From the NCBI RefSeq assembly GCF_014651675.1, contig NZ_BMXI01000002.1, forward strand, positions 277,695 through 341,694: a DNA stretch of 64,000 nt, given 5' to 3'. Positions 20,452 through 46,041 of the stretch are shown here, in pieces (the first letter of the stretch is position 1; every line of letters starts with the position of its first letter). The stretch is from Roseibacillus persicicus. GTDB lineage: Bacteria > Verrucomicrobiota > Verrucomicrobiia > Verrucomicrobiales > Akkermansiaceae. Below the pieces are notes generated by a model that was given only the letters and a program-made list of their open reading frames with translations, did not search any database and was not told the origin of the DNA. The position numbers and the translations under genes were made by a program.

Positions 20452-20686
20452 TTTTGTATATTGTTGAGTTTTTTCCCGATTTCGCTTGTCTTGAGGTCGT
20501 GAGGAAAAATCTCCAGCTAAATTCCTCCGTCCTGTCTTGGATGGGGGCTGGCACCCACGCAGTTTTTGCGGATTCAGAGGGTCGACCAGTCGGGGTCTTT
20601 GGTTCTGGGGGGAGGCTTTCTCACGAAACAGTCCGTCTCTTTTCTCAGGCCGTCTTTTCCTCTACCGAAAACGCAAATCTCTCAAA

Positions 20687-21862
20687 ATGATCACCAATAC
20701 ACATCTTCAACGCTGGGCCGACGTTCTGGTTCGGCACGCGACTCAAGTTCAGCCCGGCGACGTGGTTCGGATTACTTCTGTTCCTGCTGCGGAGCCTCTG
20801 CTGGAGGCTGTCTATCGGAAGGTCTTGGAGGCGGGGGGATTGCCGGTGGTGAATTGCCGTCCGGAGTTTCTGGGCGAAGCTTTCTATGAGTTGGCCAGTG
20901 AGCAACAGTTGGATTGGGTCAATCCACTTGTTCAGGCAGAGACCGAGTTGGTGGATGCGACGATCAATCTGGGCGGCTCCACCAATCTGCGGGCGTTGGA
21001 CAAGTTTGATCCGAAACGGATTCAACGGGCAGCGCGGGCGAACAAGGCGAGTCGCGAGCTCTTCTTTCAGCGGGCGGCAGTGGCGGATGACCCTGGTATC
21101 GACTCGGAACTGCGTCCATTGCTCTGGTCGACCACTCTTTTCCCCACCAACGCATATGCGCAGGATGCGGGGATGAGCCTGCGGGACTATTGCGAGTTTG
21201 TGGTGAAGGCCTGCCAGCTGAATCAAGAGGATCCGGTCGCCTTCTGGCAGCAATTGGATGCCTGGCAATCGGCGTTGGCGGAGTCTTTGATGAAAGGGAA
21301 TCAGCTCCGTTTCCAGACTCCCGCCGGCACGGACCTCACGGTTGATGTCTCCGGGATGCGTTGGCTCTCTAGCCCAGGGAGAAAGAATTTTCCGGACGGC
21401 GAGGTCTACTCTGGGCCGAACCTTGCCGCCGAAAATGGCGGCGCGGAGGGGGTGGTCGTCTTTGACAAGCGCTGCGTCTATCAGGGGCACGCCGTTCGAA
21501 ATGCCCGCATCGTGATGGAAAAGGGCCGGGCCACCGAGGTACAGGCGGAGGAGGGAGAGGAGTTCCTCATCTCCATGTTGGATCAGGACGAAGGCGCGCG
21601 CCGTATCGGTGAGGTCGCCTTTGGAACCAACCGGGCCATTGACCGGGCGACGGGTCAGATTCTCTTTGATGAGAAGATGGGCGGCTCTTTCCACCTTGCC
21701 TTTGGCGCGGGATATCCCGAGACCGGCAATACGAACAAGAGCACCTTGCACTGGGATCTCATCGCGGGTCTGGGTGAAGGATCACGGGTGACCCTGGATG
21801 GAAAGCCGTTCTGCATAGATGGCCGCTTTGTGGAGATGCCACCCGAGGTCGAGTGGCTTTAG
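20687..21862 (+). CDS. M29-family metallo-aminopeptidase
   Basis: A thermophilic-aminopeptidase (M29) family enzyme of about 391 residues that removes N-terminal residues from peptides with two metal ions. C-terminal motifs are clear: S-G-P-N-L-A-A-E-N-G near 240, E-G-E-E-F-L near 285, A-F-G-A-G-Y-P-E-T-G near 335, and L-H-W-D-L-I near 350 with metal-binding His and Asp. The ATG at 20687 starts M-I-T-N-T-H-L-Q-R-W-A-D and fits the family; the longer open frame upstream is not typical. A 67-codon fragment closely matching its 3' end occurs at 44035-44235. Confidence 0.9.
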   Translation: MITNTHLQRWADVLVRHATQVQPGDVVRITSVPAAEPLLEAVYRKVLEAGGLPVVNCRPEFLGEAFYELASEQQLDWVNPLVQAETELVDATINLGGSTNLRALDKFDPKRIQRAARANKASRELFFQRAAVADDPGIDSELRPLLWSTTLFPTNAYAQDAGMSLRDYCEFVVKACQLNQEDPVAFWQQLDAWQSALAESLMKGNQLRFQTPAGTDLTVDVSGMRWLSSPGRKNFPDGEVYSGPNLAAENGGAEGVVVFDKRCVYQGHAVRNARIVMEKGRATEVQAEEGEEFLISMLDQDEGARRIGEVAFGTNRAIDRATGQILFDEKMGGSFHLAFGAGYPETGNTNKSTLHWDLIAGLGEGSRVTLDGKPFCIDGRFVEMPPEVEWL

Positions 21863-41332: not shown

Positions 41333-41434
41333 GGTTAGGTGGTCCAACAGAGAAGTTTTTGTGGGTCTGTTAGAACACAGGGTGCAGGCTGGTCTTGCGC
41401 GCAATAGGATGTGAGGTTTCTGTTGGGGACAGCG

Positions 41435-42157
41435 ATGAGTAAGACTAATCAAGAGGCGATTGAGGTTCGTCCGGGCGAGGAGGACGGCTATGTCTCCAGC
41501 GTTGAGGGGAAGCCGATGAAGATTCCTACTGACTGGGGGCTTCTGCCTCCGGGAGATGCGGCTTTGAGCCGGAGAGTGAAGATGGAGGGCCCGAGTTGGA
41601 CGGTGGTGGAGTTCAAGCGACGTAAGAAATTTTCTCATGGGATCTTTGCGCCCGCGGATCGGATTGAACAACTGAAGGCAGAGCGCGAAGCGGAGAAGAA
41701 CGATCCCGCCTATCTCAAGAAACTCGATGCCGGACGTTCGCGCCGCGCCAAGGCGGAGAAGGCCTATGCGGAGGAGTTTGAGCAGGCGGTGTTTCAGTTT
41801 CTCGATTTTCATGAAGAGCATCTGGAACTGGCCAATCAGATCGCTAAAGCGGTGGCCGAGCATGCCGTTCCGGTAGGGAGTGGCACGGTGGCTCGCACGC
41901 AGCGCATCCCTATCGAGCAGCGTGCGGAATCCGCGGTGATCGCCTGGATGCGCCATCAGACGACCGCTTACGATCACATGCTGATTCCCCGCGAGAAAGG
42001 GGCCCGCCGTGAGGTGCGCCGAATGCTGGCCAAGGAGTCGCGCCGCTTGCTGCAGGATTATCGCAGCTCCGGACAGCAGGGGAGCAAGGATTGCCCTTTA
42101 AGCCGTGCGTGTGGCAGGTTTTGCAAGCCAAAGAAGGATGATTATCGTTCTTGCTAG
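41435..42157 (+). CDS. DUF2293 domain protein
   Basis: From the ATG at 41435 the product has 240 residues. Residues about 95-150 are strongly charged and helical (E-K-A-Y-A-E-E-F-E-Q-A). The DUF2293 block lies in the last third: R-A-E-S-A-V-I-A-W-M-R-H-Q-T-T-A-Y-D near 175, then R-E-V-R-R-M-L-A-K-E-S-R-R-L-L. The role of this domain is not established. The tail after L-L-Q-D-Y-R-S holds four Cys (D-C-P-L-S-R-A-C-G-R-F-C and a final C) and may be a read-through extension created where the downstream island joins. Composition returns to GC-rich here, unlike the next two genes. Confidence 0.75.
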   Translation: MSKTNQEAIEVRPGEEDGYVSSVEGKPMKIPTDWGLLPPGDAALSRRVKMEGPSWTVVEFKRRKKFSHGIFAPADRIEQLKAEREAEKNDPAYLKKLDAGRSRRAKAEKAYAEEFEQAVFQFLDFHEEHLELANQIAKAVAEHAVPVGSGTVARTQRIPIEQRAESAVIAWMRHQTTAYDHMLIPREKGARREVRRMLAKESRRLLQDYRSSGQQGSKDCPLSRACGRFCKPKKDDYRSC

Positions 42158-42231
42158 CTTCCCTCGAAAGTCCTATTCACTTGGCAAATTTAGTATCTCA
42201 CAATCCGTCGCTTAGGCTGCCGTCAACGAAG

Positions 42232-42717
42232 ATGACTTTAAATAACCAAAAAGAACAGTTCAGCTCTGCGTATGCACAAGCCGTTGCAAGCGTGGCTGGT
42301 TTAAAGATATCAAAATGCGAAGTGGATGACGATAGCATCGACATCACGATCGAACGGTCTGGCGGCCTCGCCGAAAGATTAGACATTCAGCTCAAATGCA
42401 CCGCCTCTTCCATTCCGGTTAGCGGAGACCTGAGCTTTCCATTAAAGCTCAAAAATTATGAAGATCTCTCACGGGTGACAATCATGCCCAGAATTTTGGT
42501 AGTTCTCTTCGTTCCAAAAGACAGCCAAGATTGGATGAAGATTACGGAAGAGCAGGCTCTCATTCGTCACTCCGCTTGGTGGGTCGATTTGAAAGACTCC
42601 CCGTCCACAGACAATGATACCTCAGTGACAGTGACGATTCCACGCGACAATCTTTTCCGCCCAGAAATTCTGACCAAATTGCTCGACGAAACTCGTAACC
42701 AATTCACCCCAGCATGA
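42232..42717 (+). CDS. DUF4365 domain protein, putative defence-cassette component
   Basis: From the ATG at 42232 the protein has 161 residues. The N-terminus N-N-Q-K-E-Q-F-S-S-A-Y-A-Q-A-V-A-S follows the DUF4365 pattern. The core then reads D-D-S-I-D-I-T-I near 45 and L-D-I-Q-L-K-C-T near 58, which recalls the D ... Q-x-K arrangement of restriction-endonuclease-like folds. W-W-V-D-L near 125 is also conserved-looking. The start is preferred because the longer frame begins in sequence unlike the family. The stop overlaps the next gene's start (ATGA), so the two are translationally coupled. The codons are more AT-rich than in the flanks, suggesting import. A nuclease or nucleic-acid-binding role is inference. 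Confidence 0.72.
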   Translation: MTLNNQKEQFSSAYAQAVASVAGLKISKCEVDDDSIDITIERSGGLAERLDIQLKCTASSIPVSGDLSFPLKLKNYEDLSRVTIMPRILVVLFVPKDSQDWMKITEEQALIRHSAWWVDLKDSPSTDNDTSVTVTIPRDNLFRPEILTKLLDETRNQFTPA

Positions 42718-43835
42718 CCGGTAGCTCTCATCAGATTGACCATCTCACTTCGCACGACGTAGCGGCCTACGTGCGCTCGTCCGGATGGAAGCACATCGGG
42801 AACTACGGCCAAGAAGCGAGCGCTTTCGAGAAAAATGAACATCAGCTTCTTATACCCCTCGCCACTGACTTTGCGGACTACGGTCGCCGAATGGCCGAAG
42901 TTGTCAGCAGCCTTGCTAAATTTGAAGCGCGTTCGTTGGACGCGGTTCTGAGAGATTTGGCCTATGCATCTGCTGACGTCTTTCGTATCCGACTTCAAAA
43001 TCCACTCTTTGAGGGTGGCGAAGTCACTTTAGACCAAGGGATTCTTCTCTTCGACAATGCCCAGAAGCTGGTTCATGCGGCAGCCCGCTCAGCAATCAAC
43101 CCTAAGGCCTATCACCTTGCTCGGGCAGGAACCCAAGCCGAAGATTTTCTCAAGAGAGTTAAACTCGGTCAGACGGAGATTGGCAGCTATATTCTGACTA
43201 TCGTTTTCCCTATCACCCCAGATCTCTTGGACGATCAAGACGAAGAAGCATCACTTCCTTTTGAGAGAAAAGTTACCCGGGGAATCGTTTCCGGTCTGAA
43301 TTCGCTTGAAACGGCTCTTCGGTCTCAAGTGGCCAAACCCTCTTTAGAACCGTTTCTGAAGCTAGTGAAAAAGGGAGTCAGTGCGAATCTCTGTGAAGCT
43401 ATATCCAATATTGGAGAGAAGACAGAAGGAACGATGATCGACACCCAACTCACTTGGGCTAGGAATCGGCGAGCCCCAGAGATGAACACAAAGGCACGCT
43501 TTCAAGCTGGAGATTTTTCTTACCTCCGTTCAGCGGCAGAAAACTTGAAGGAGCAGGCTTGGGACGAGGAACTTGTTGTAACAGGACCTGTGACTCGGAT
43601 CGAAAGTGACGCGGCTCTTTTCGGAGGCGATGTTTTCGTTAATGCTCTCATCGGAGAATCAGTCCGGCGGGTAAAACTCAATCTCGATCAAGACCAATAT
43701 CAACAAGCGAATCAAGCTCACCTTGCGGGCCAAGCTATCGAAGTGAGGGGGAAAATTGAGAAACAGGGTCGTTACCTCACAATGGTTTCACCTGCTGAAT
43801 TTTCAGTATTCGAGATAAAGGAAGAGGACCAATAA
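42714..43835 (+). CDS. Conserved protein of unknown function, coupled to the DUF4365 gene
   Basis: A 373-residue soluble protein overlapping the DUF4365 gene by four bases. The N-terminal ~60 residues read A-A-Y-V-R-S-S-G-W, H-Q-L-L-I-P-L-A-T-D-F-A-D-Y-G-R-R-M and V-L-R-D-L-A, a helical arrangement. A helical middle part follows. The last 85 residues are beta-rich with a probable OB-like pattern: V-T-G-P-V-T-R-I, then V-K-L-N-L-D-Q-D-Q-Y-Q-Q-A-N-Q-A-H, and I-E-V-R-G-K-I-E-K-Q-G-R-Y-L. No enzyme motif, membrane segment or P-loop is visible. Coupling to a DUF4365 partner in AT-richer DNA beside truncated genes suggests a mobile two-gene module. Confidence 0.68.
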   Translation: MTGSSHQIDHLTSHDVAAYVRSSGWKHIGNYGQEASAFEKNEHQLLIPLATDFADYGRRMAEVVSSLAKFEARSLDAVLRDLAYASADVFRIRLQNPLFEGGEVTLDQGILLFDNAQKLVHAAARSAINPKAYHLARAGTQAEDFLKRVKLGQTEIGSYILTIVFPITPDLLDDQDEEASLPFERKVTRGIVSGLNSLETALRSQVAKPSLEPFLKLVKKGVSANLCEAISNIGEKTEGTMIDTQLTWARNRRAPEMNTKARFQAGDFSYLRSAAENLKEQAWDEELVVTGPVTRIESDAALFGGDVFVNALIGESVRRVKLNLDQDQYQQANQAHLAGQAIEVRGKIEKQGRYLTMVSPAEFSVFEIKEEDQ

Positions 43836-44034
43836 TAAGGAAATGAACAGCGGTGCTTTCAAAGAAGAAACGTCTGGTCTAGGCTGAAGTCTATTCCTTG
43901 GGGCCATTCGTCCAGCGTTCAGGTAAGTTCGCACATCGCCACTTTTTTCATCCTATTCAACAGTGCTATTTGAATTATGAAGTAGGTCTGGTTCTGGAAA
44001 TGGAAAATGAAAAAATGTCTGACCCCTTACAAAA
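43836..44034. other. Island right-hand flank with a partial repeat-like motif
   Basis: About 200 bases without a gene separate the two-gene cassette from the aminopeptidase fragment. Near its end (44013-44028) stands AAATGTCTGACCCCTT, a sequence reminiscent of short repeats that accompany REP-associated transposases in other bacteria. The aminopeptidase homology begins seven bases later, which suggests a recombination junction. Confidence 0.4.
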
Positions 44035-44235
44035 CTCTTTGATGAGAAAATGGGAGGTTCCTTCCACTTGGCCTTCGGGGCCGGCTATCCCGAGACTGGG
44101 AACACCAACAAGAGTGCCTTGCATTGGGACTTGATCGCCGGGTTGGGCGAGGGTTCTCGAGTCACCCTCGATGGCAAACCGTTCTGTGTGGATGGGGTCT
44201 TTGTCGAGATGCCGCCAGAGGTTCAGTGGCTCTAG
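44035..44235 (+). pseudogene. 3' fragment of a second M29 aminopeptidase gene
   Basis: Sixty-seven codons, from L-F-D-E-K-M-G-G-S-F to V-Q-W-L and a stop, match the C-terminus of the intact aminopeptidase at 20687-21862 almost residue for residue. They include A-F-G-A-G-Y-P-E-T-G and L-H-W-D-L-I. The DNA is similar but not identical, so this is a diverged paralogue rather than a recent copy. All upstream parts, including most metal ligands, are absent. The break coincides with the end of the AT-richer cassette, so insertion or deletion removed the 5' part. Confidence 0.85.
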
Positions 44236-44307
44236 CTGATGACCCGCGCGGCGGGAAAGTTTGACCAGAGTTGCAACTCTCCCAAGTGGCGGGGTTGAAC
44301 TTGTCAG

Positions 44308-44899
44308 ATGAAAACGCCGCTCCTCTCTCTTCTCCTGTTGCTTTCCCTTCCGCTCGCTGCGCAATCGCGGCGGGGCACTGACATCGCGCCCAAGGTGGGG
44401 GACGCGATTCCCAAGGTGGAGGTGGTGAAGTTGGAGGGCGAGGGAAAGGTGGATCTTTCCAAGCCGGAGAAAGTCACCGTTCTCATCTTTGGCTCCCACA
44501 CCTGAGGACCTTTCATGAGGCTGGCCGGGCGCCTGCAGAAGCTTTACGAAACCTACGGGGAAGATGCCGATTTCTGGTGGATCTATATCCAGGAAGCTCA
44601 CCCCACGGATGGTCGCCGTCCCAGTAAGACGGTCCAAATCGAGTCGCACAAAACCTTCGACGATCGGCAGACGGCTGCTGAAGGATGTTCCAATATCGGT
44701 GCTGAAGGTCCCCGTCTTGCTGGACGATATGAATGATTCCGCCGCCACCGCCTATTCCGCGAGCCCGGAGCGATTCTTCATCTTGGGAGCCGATGGAAAA
44801 GTGGCGTATGCCGGTGAACGCGGCCCATTCGGAGTGGATATCGATGCTCTCGAGGCACGATTGAAGGAATTGTTGGTTGAGACGTGGAGTTCGCAATAG
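44308..44899 (+). pseudogene. Deiodinase/thioredoxin-fold protein gene with in-frame UGA at the Sec/Cys site and a frameshift
   Basis: A signal peptide (L-L-S-L-L-L-L-L-S-L-P-L-A-A-Q-S) is followed by V-L-I-F-G-S-H-T, a TGA codon (44503-44505), then G-P-F-M-R-L-A-G and I-Y-I-Q-E-A-H-P-T-D-G in the same frame. This matches iodothyronine-deiodinase-like proteins, where F-G-S-x-T-U-P-P-F carries selenocysteine and bacterial members often have Cys. Near 44688-44697 the frame shifts by one base; the family continues in another frame with V-P-V-L-L-D-D-M, F-F-I-L-G-A-D-G-K-V-A-Y and R-G-P-F-G. Two readings are open: a selenoprotein with a second lesion, or a Cys gene decayed by a nonsense change and a frameshift. 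A GC-rich hairpin (AGGC ... GCCT, 44518-44534) follows the TGA. Confidence 0.72.
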
Positions 44900-44937
44900 C
44901 TGGCAAGCGTGGAGGGTGAAACGGGGTTGTTGCTGAG

Positions 44938-45033
44938 GACGCAACACCTTTGGTGTTGGGGGATTTGAGGGAATGGTGACCCAGGGTAGGCTCCGCCAGC
45001 CCTAGGCTGAGAGACGCAACACCGTTGGTGTTG
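44938..45033. repeat. Intergenic palindromic repeat pair
   Basis: GACGCAACACC-T-TTGGTGTTG (44938-44958) recurs as GACGCAACACC-G-TTGGTGTTG (45013-45033). Each can fold (CAACACC / GGTGTTG). Between them is CCAGGGTAGGCTCCGCCAGCC followed by CTAGG, which is itself partly self-complementary. The arrangement is that of a short interspersed repeat. The stretch lies between the deiodinase-like gene and the convergent regulator gene. Confidence 0.7.
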
Positions 45034-45091
45034 ACGAGGGCAAGGTGGGTGGTTTTGAAATGGAATCGTTGGCTGGCTGAAGTATGAGGTT

Positions 45092-45436
45092 TCAGGTGAC
45101 GGGTTTGTCTTTGGCGCGCGGACGGCGGCGGGTGGAGAAGAGGGAGGTGCGGCGTTCGAGGGGAATAGACTCGTAGCAGACGGCGACGAGCTCTCTGAGG
45201 CGGGGTGCGACTCGTGATTTGGGGTTCCAGCTGTAGACGAGAGTTCGGCCTTGTTTCTTGGAGACGAGGACACCGGCTAGGCGAAATTTTTCCAACTGTC
45301 GTTGAATCGGTTCGAGGCTAAGATCGAGGTCGTTGGAGACTGCTCGTCCGTAGGTTTCGCCGTGGTGGAAGAGGTGGAGTAGAACTGCTTCGGCTGAGCG
45401 GCTACCAAGAATATCCCCCAAGGCTGATAAATTCAT
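45092..45436 (-). CDS. Winged-helix transcriptional regulator, putative antitoxin-like partner
   Basis: A 114-residue protein. Residues 5-70 form a winged helix: L-G-D-I-L-G-S-R-S-A-E-A-V-L-L-H-L-F near 5, a recognition-helix-like S-L-E-P-I-Q-R-Q-L-E-K-F near 40, and a wing with G-V-L-V-S-K-K-Q-G-R-T-L-V-Y near 55-68. The tail is basic (R-R-R-P-R-A-K-D-K). The gene is divergent from a nucleotidyltransferase gene, with only 41 bases between start codons, and a perfect palindrome fills that gap. It probably represses both genes. Similar regulator/nucleotidyltransferase pairs are known or suspected toxin-antitoxin modules. Confidence 0.75.
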   Translation of the reverse strand: MNLSALGDILGSRSAEAVLLHLFHHGETYGRAVSNDLDLSLEPIQRQLEKFRLAGVLVSKKQGRTLVYSWNPKSRVAPRLRELVAVCYESIPLERRTSLFSTRRRPRAKDKPVT

Positions 45437-45474
45437 GACTTGAAAATAGGGTCAAATGACTTTAATTTCAAGTC
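45437..45474. promoter_or_regulatory. Palindromic operator between divergent starts
   Basis: GACTTGAAA (45437-45445) and TTTCAAGTC (45466-45474) are perfect inverted copies separated by 20 bases. They lie between the two start codons (45436 on the minus strand, 45478 on the plus strand). The spacing between arm centres is about 29 bases, close to three helical turns. Binding here would block both genes, so this is a probable autoregulatory site for the winged-helix protein. Confidence 0.65.
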
Positions 45475-45477
45475 GAA

Positions 45478-46041
45478 ATGAATGAATCTATATCAGAGCC
45501 CAATTGGGCAGTCGCTATGGAGGAGGACGTCTGGAGGTTTCTTGCGTGGCATCTGCAGAAGGCTGGAATCGAAACGGTGTTGGTGGGCGGCGCGGTAGTC
45601 GCGATCTATACTGAGGGGCTCTATCAGTCGGGAGACCTAGACATGGTTCCTGATGAATTTGAGCGGAAACGAATTGAAGAGGTTTTGACGGCGATTGGCT
45701 TTGAGGCTCGGGCGGGTAGGTATTTCGGCCATCCCCAATGTGAGCATCTTCTGGTCGAGTTTCCGAAGGGGCCAGTCGAGCTAGGGGAAGAGTTTCCGGT
45801 GACGCCTGCAGAGGAGTTGGTGTCGGGTGAAATTCTGAAAATTTTATCACCAACCGACTGTGTGAAAGATCGGCTGGCAGGTTATATCCACTGGCAGACC
45901 CGTGACACGTTTGACCAGGCGGTGTTGGTTTGTAAGAAACAAGCAGAGAGAATCGACTGGAGTGTCTTGAAAAACTGGTGCAAACGCGAAGGCGCACTTG
46001 GGGCTTACGAAGAACTAGAGAAAGCGGTGCAAAGAGAGTAA
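45478..46041 (+). CDS. Nucleotidyltransferase-fold protein, putative toxin or kin
   Basis: A 187-residue protein with a nucleotidyltransferase signature: V-L-V-G-G-A-V-V-A-I near residue 38, then S-G-D-L-D-M-V near 55. These are the G-G ... D-x-D elements of pol-beta-like nucleotidyltransferases, as in AbiEii-type proteins. Residues 110-135 (S-P-T-D-C-V-K-D-R-L-A-G) recall the substrate-facing helix with K-D-R. The C-terminus is a helical domain. It is divergently paired with a winged-helix regulator and may be a toxin that modifies nucleotides or RNA, or an antibiotic-modification-type enzyme. Activity cannot be proven from sequence. Confidence 0.72.
   Translation: MNESISEPNWAVAMEEDVWRFLAWHLQKAGIETVLVGGAVVAIYTEGLYQSGDLDMVPDEFERKRIEEVLTAIGFEARAGRYFGHPQCEHLLVEFPKGPVELGEEFPVTPAEELVSGEILKILSPTDCVKDRLAGYIHWQTRDTFDQAVLVCKKQAERIDWSVLKNWCKREGALGAYEELEKAVQRE

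Follow-up and report, generated by a model that had tools for sequence, protein, structure and literature searches.

The gene at positions 44,308 to 44,899 of the window (by which we mean the whole stretch of 64,000 nucleotides of Roseibacillus persicicus analysed here) resembles the deiodinases, carries an in-frame UGA at the active site and changes reading frame further downstream. It raises two questions: whether the UGA is read as selenocysteine (Sec) or as a stop, and whether the gene is still whole. An earlier note on the same DNA put them as a single choice, between a decoded selenoprotein and a doubly broken pseudogene.

Translation from 44308 gives F-G-S-H-T-[UGA]-G-P-F-M and then, in frame, I-Y-I-Q-E-A-H-P-T-D-G, just where the earlier note had placed them. 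Membership of the deiodinase family, also claimed there, is borne out by the Pfam profile T4_deiodinase (PF00837), which matches residues 29-125 of this frame (7.4e-20, 71.7 bits against a cut-off of 27) and also the second part of the gene (5.7e-9, 36.1 bits, same cut-off). The only match to PF00837 in the whole genome is the window gene, in pieces that correspond to profile positions 74-174 (with one TGA) and 174-233. The first part holds the start of the thioredoxin fold, the Sec active site and a conserved Cys127, and it begins with an N-terminal hydrophobic leader of about 20 residues, a signal peptide when judged by eye. A gene finder would split the gene at the UGA, as had been foreseen, and in fact the ORF listing ends there. 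The coordinates are collected in Table 1.

Table 1. Features of the deiodinase-like locus and of the related aminopeptidase genes in the window
Feature	Position	Strand	Basis or remark
M29-type aminopeptidase, intact gene	20537-21862		PF02073, 4.2e-72
M29-type aminopeptidase, 3' stub, directly upstream of the deiodinase-like gene	44050-44235	+	0.0079 alone, below cut-off
Deiodinase-like gene, first part	44308-44691	+	ATG at 44308; translation, PF00837 match, alignment to relatives
In-frame UGA, residue 66	44503-44505	+	same codon in 18 relatives
Predicted bacterial SECIS hairpin, 6-bp stem, 5-base loop CGGGC with invariant G	44520-44536	+	covariation
Frameshift zone, net two-base deficit relative to each of the 15 relatives aligned	44689-44701	+	alignment
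Deiodinase-like gene, second part, L-K-V-P-V-L-L-D-D-M ... TAG 44897-44899	44702-44899	+	next frame over
UGA ending the first frame past the shift	44734-44736	+	translation

Relatives of the gene were sought with PF00837 in the order and in the family. In the order, 46 of the 386 genomes drawn have a match, above the cut-off in 42; the UGA lies inside the above-cut-off match in 18 genomes, that of the window included, and is absent from 23, the remaining one having a fragment at a contig edge. In the family, the match exceeds the cut-off in 11 of 260 genomes, and 10 of these 11, again with the window genome, have the UGA form. The two surveys yielded 18 relatives with the UGA (17 from the order and one from the family), each a single open frame apart from that codon; since the UGA stands at the same residue in all of them, a chance match is excluded. 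Other homologues have Cys there, as the comparison proposed in the earlier note was meant to reveal: UGA was found in 20 of the 39 loci inspected, a count that includes repeats of one genome and near-identical species, and Cys at the Sec position in 15 of the 18 non-UGA loci inspected, the other three not being resolved by the script. The statement that most bacterial members have Cys is thus fair for the order, with 23 genomes lacking the UGA against 18 with it. The usual active site among the UGA loci is F-G-S-H-T-U-G-P-F, with variants, and over its first part the window copy shares 66-68% identity with its nearest relatives in named records. Three relatives recur below, L036 from a Verrucomicrobiales MAG and L037 and L038 from Akkermansiaceae MAGs; when the gene lists were compared by eye, no neighbour was common to the window and these three. 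Matches to PF00837 below the cut-off were also seen in frames of 454-622 codons with one TGA (G412, G413, G325, G181, G184 and G177), perhaps another family of Sec redoxins.

The genome (5.28 Mb in 92 contigs, 97.5% complete) has the means to decode such a codon. All the Sec genes that the earlier note had named as a check are present: selA and selB are both above the cut-off (for selB a curated one), selD is above the cut-off and has its own in-frame UGA, in SSCAG-U-ASK, and tRNA-Sec, with anticodon tca, was detected by both Rfam and ARAGORN. A thioredoxin-like gene with an in-frame UGA in SASW-U-GPC (L010, 579-1301 on the minus strand) lies near tRNA-Sec on contig 16 of the genome (G000), and a second member, 40% identical and with one TGA, on contig 10. 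Homologues with one TGA occur in the three sister species, and many more are found in the family and the order; this thioredoxin-like group may be a larger Sec family of these bacteria. Across the survey, selA is above the cut-off in 15 of the 18 genomes with the UGA form, the three misses being 53, 59 and 83% complete, and in 12 of the 23 genomes whose above-cut-off matches have no UGA; this comparison, which omits the genome with the contig-edge fragment, is no more than suggestive of a link between the UGA form and the presence of selA.

A SECIS-like structure after 44503, another check named in the earlier note, was found as a covarying hairpin in an alignment, A1, of the window copy and 16 relatives; L023, L043, L057 and L060, each from the same genome as a kept row or near-identical to one, were omitted, and L062, by eye the same protein as L037, also stands outside A1. 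The hairpin lies 15-31 bases past the UGA, with columns 18-23 paired with columns 29-34. Over the 17 sequences, and with their kinship ignored, 86.3% of the cells are paired and five of the six pairs have changes on both sides, a figure equalled by 6 of 500 shuffles; the covariation score, likewise with kinship ignored, is 0.400, against 0.170 (sd 0.036) in shuffled alignments, none of 500 reaching it, and 0.034-0.115 for slid partners. Five or six of the six pairs of this fixed stem can form in 13 of the 16 UGA relatives, against zero to five in 15 Cys homologues, where five are reached in one only (L059, which has an 8-bp hairpin at the SECIS place); in L040, L046 and L056 the hairpin there is different or shifted. 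The window copy keeps five pairs, having U-U at 44522/44534 (columns 20/32), where the other 16 sequences have A-U, and the same change substitutes Leu for the Gln, Asp or Glu of the 15 relatives in the protein alignment. RNAalifold on A1 recovered four of the six pairs, and its consensus energy was -0.05 kcal/mol. Single-sequence folding was uninformative: 197 of 200 shuffles of the window stretch after the UGA fold at least as well as the stretch itself, and eight sequences folded singly had z-scores between -0.72 and 1.83, that of the window copy being the poorest of all; as none of the eight fell below -0.72, the test is one of low power. Over 43800-45500 every Rfam match fell far short of its gathering score.

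Because the Sec genes, the other in-frame UGAs of the genome, the UGA relatives and the covarying SECIS hairpin all agree, the window UGA is almost certainly a selenocysteine codon, and the gene belongs to a deiodinase-like family that would decode this stop as Sec, the actual insertion of Sec being what these sequence features predict. Three of the four refuting conditions named in the earlier note (no Sec machinery, no SECIS-like structure, Cys in all close homologues) thereby fail.

The second interruption is of another kind. In the protein alignment, made of the window copy and 15 relatives (L055 was left out as near-identical to L029), all 15 relatives have the same spacing from the conserved Cys and Ser codons (44686-44691) to L-K-V-P-V (starting at 44702), and the window copy has lost it, so that the shift lies between these two points. 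The earlier note had come close as to the place, which it gave as 44688-44697; as to the size, the zone is net two bases shorter than in the relatives and not simply one longer. Within it no single base is repeated more than twice in a row. The window copy is therefore not one reading frame apart from the UGA and was filed as a broken, not a working, member, since the frame is lost at 44689-44701. Even with Sec inserted, translation would yield 142 residues and about the last third of the fold would be missing; in the model of L036 the elements past residue 135 are E136-139, H144-150, E155-159, E164-170 and H178-190.

The gene directly upstream is truncated as well. The aminopeptidase stub has an intact counterpart some 22 kb upstream, with whose end it shares 93% of amino acids and 78% of nucleotides; 205 bp can be aligned. 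Since the differences at this nucleotide identity are mostly synonymous, its truncation is probably a recent event. Other elements were recorded around the locus. A DUF2293 gene precedes, and the stub follows, a candidate defence pair recognised by PADLOC at 42151-43835 (plus strand), with 41411-42157 upstream (PDC-M02A, a DUF4365 protein, 1.2e-57; PDC-M02B, 1e-116), and the third-position GC of the two genes, 0.51 and 0.47, is below that of most window ORFs. Just downstream of the deiodinase-like gene the palindromic repeat GACGCAACACCnTTGGTGTTG occurs at 44938-44958 and 45013-45033, and a genome-wide search that allowed up to 2 mismatches found only one further copy. It is followed by a divergent pair, possibly defence or toxin-antitoxin-like, composed of a small protein at 45092-45436 on the minus strand, which matches PDC-M05A weakly (4.8e-7), and a nucleotidyltransferase-like protein at 45478-46041 on the plus strand (DUF2204, below the cut-off).

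How old the break may be was judged from the codons on its two sides. Compared with its five nearest relatives, the window copy differs at codon positions 1, 2 and 3 by 8-17, 6-14 and 38-45 sites in the 79 codons before the break, and by 8-17, 5-9 and 31-40 in the 54 codons after it; among intact relatives the corresponding ranges are 8-18, 2-10 and 34-51 before the break position and 5-13, 6-10 and 27-38 after it. An excess of replacement changes, as expected from decay, was sought on both sides and not clearly found. Where the rest of the close group is uniform, the window copy has 8 private changes, one of them at the junction, where the alignment is unsure; the intact L042 also has 8, and the other four close relatives have 1, 1, 4 and 6. 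From the columns uniform across the other 15 sequences the window copy departs in none. Because the codon-position pattern is so much like that of intact relatives, the break is either young or not real.

Between these two, the main alternative is that the gene is intact and encodes a functional Sec deiodinase-like protein, the frameshift being an error of sequencing or assembly, a possibility that we take seriously while thinking it distinctly the less probable. It would fit the pattern of codon positions and the conservation of residues, which before the break as well as after it match a gene under selection, and the number of contigs in the assembly, which is 92. Several observations go against it. 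The break is not at a homopolymer; selA, selB, eight further selB-like matches and, apart from its UGA, selD are each a single open frame; a greedy list of 38 window ORFs, one of them of 2915 codons, revealed on inspection by eye no further obvious split; the loss of the SECIS pair and the change of Gln to Leu are private to the window copy; and the adjoining gene is truncated too. Moreover, in three genomes of the same genus the deiodinase-like gene is absent from all three, with selA kept. We favour, with a modest preference, a recent pseudogene over an error, because there is no homopolymer at the break, the neighbour is truncated and the gene is absent from the three sister species. The frameshift itself is seen in the assembly, and it is presumably present in the living genome.

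Much less probable is a bypass of the frameshift by the ribosome, in which the UGA and a recoded shift would both serve one gene. Runs such as CCC in frame are places where +1 slips can happen, and the conservation of both parts, together with a run of four C at 44710-44713 that places CCC in the first frame, could be read in this way. However, the intact frame of L037 has the same run (CTG AAG GTC CCC GTC), a slip at the run would make the preceding loop of the product shorter and different, and no split gene occurs among the 18 UGA relatives, so that no conserved frameshift exists. A gene broken twice, with the UGA a plain stop, is the default reading of a gene finder and agrees with the end of the listed ORF; it is hardly credible, since 18 relatives have UGA at the Cys/Sec position, a covarying hairpin follows the codon and the genome has the Sec genes in full.

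We thus regard the locus as a gene for a Sec-decoded deiodinase-like selenoprotein that recently lost its frame, a young pseudogene being, with some reservation, the most likely reading because translation would stop at 44734-44736. The choice offered by the earlier note was a false one: its first half holds in that the UGA would be decoded, its second fails in that the gene is probably not doubly broken. As the UGA is no defect and the frameshift probably is one, this is likely a selenoprotein gene broken once.

The working form of the protein can be approached through the intact relatives. In phmmer searches L036 matched Dio3 (4.2e-20) and Dio2 (4.1e-16), and its predicted structure (mean pLDDT 71.5, built with three sequences) had Dio2 and Dio3 (9h48 and 4tr3) as the top two Foldseek matches. 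In Dio2, Ser127, Thr129, Tyr157, Glu160, His162 and His182 have been proposed as a proton relay (PMC11592359). Besides Sec, the window copy shares with animal Dio2 and Dio3 counterparts of all six proposed relay residues, S63, T65, Y93, E96, H98 and H114, located by their spacing from Sec and by the alignment of L036 with Dio3. Two features set it apart: the conserved Trp of loop D (Trp167 in Dio2, Trp207 in Dio3) is, by spacing, Arg103 in the window copy (E-A-H-P-T-D-G-R), and in place of the membrane anchor there is a leader that by eye looks cleavable. In the column of the window Cys127, 61 residues past Sec, 14 of 16 alignment rows have Cys. The NCBIfam model NF038285 (deiodinase_rel), which is longer, with 347 positions, is matched partially by the two parts (2.6e-21, 76.5 bits, and 2e-13, 50.5 bits), its cut-off being 250 bits.

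On this basis we propose that SelA, SelB, SelD and tRNA-Sec, together with the SECIS hairpin, would decode the UGA as Sec; that in the intact relatives the Sec selenolate may attack an oxidised or halogenated substrate, assisted by the Ser-Thr-Tyr-Glu-His-His relay; that Sec would be reset by means of another thiol, perhaps that of the Cys found 61 residues further on; and that a short net deletion would recently have cost the window copy its reading frame. Our best guess for the working form is a Sec-based reductase, peroxiredoxin-like or dehalogenating, which would probably be secreted, to judge by eye from the leader. A more specific idea, which we offer as a rather unlikely one, is that the secreted Sec enzymes of Verrucomicrobiales with the full relay and no loop-D Trp are reductive dehalogenases of environmental iodinated or brominated aromatics. 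If it were true, they would be a bacterial form of a chemistry later applied by animals to thyroid hormone, and the window copy would be such an enzyme in the course of being lost.

The family to which the gene belongs is not new. Deiodinase-like proteins of bacteria with Sec and a bacterial SECIS were predicted in 2005 (PMC1088965) and counted again in 2008 (PMC2398784), and the family is listed in reviews of 2022 and 2026 (PMC9312934, PMC13188914); as it has been known since 2005 and recurs in the order, to call this an unusual bacterial selenoprotein, as the earlier note did, was an overstatement. The deiodinase-like selenoproteins of the Sargasso Sea and GOS data (PMC1088965, PMC2398784) are, as described there, of the same Pfam family, have UGA at the Cys/Sec position with Cys homologues alongside and, like those studied here, a SECIS of the bacterial type whose small apical loop contains a G; from them the window copy differs by its frameshift. 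UxxC is given as the family motif in PMC13188914 and PMC9312934, and Cys three residues past Sec is found in none of the 20 UGA loci shown, the window copy having U-G-P-F; we did not take UxxC as defining, because the GOS paper (PMC2398784) gives the family no motif. A word search for 'Verrucomicrob' found none in the main texts of PMC2398784, PMC9312934, PMC13188914 and PMC5029168, and among the papers listed from the one limited collection searched there was none on deiodinase-like selenoproteins of Verrucomicrobia or Akkermansiaceae.

The window gene is accordingly a new, probably broken, member of the known bacterial deiodinase-like selenoproteins. It points to a lineage of Verrucomicrobiales that decodes Sec and has deiodinase-like selenoproteins which gene finders would split at the UGA, and it offers an instance in which such a gene is breaking down and the Sec genes are retained. 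The window copy itself, being probably dead, is of modest interest; the useful outcome is the set of intact relatives L036, L037 and L038, bacterial homologues with the full relay whose expression could show which reaction the family carries out in the absence of thyroid hormone.
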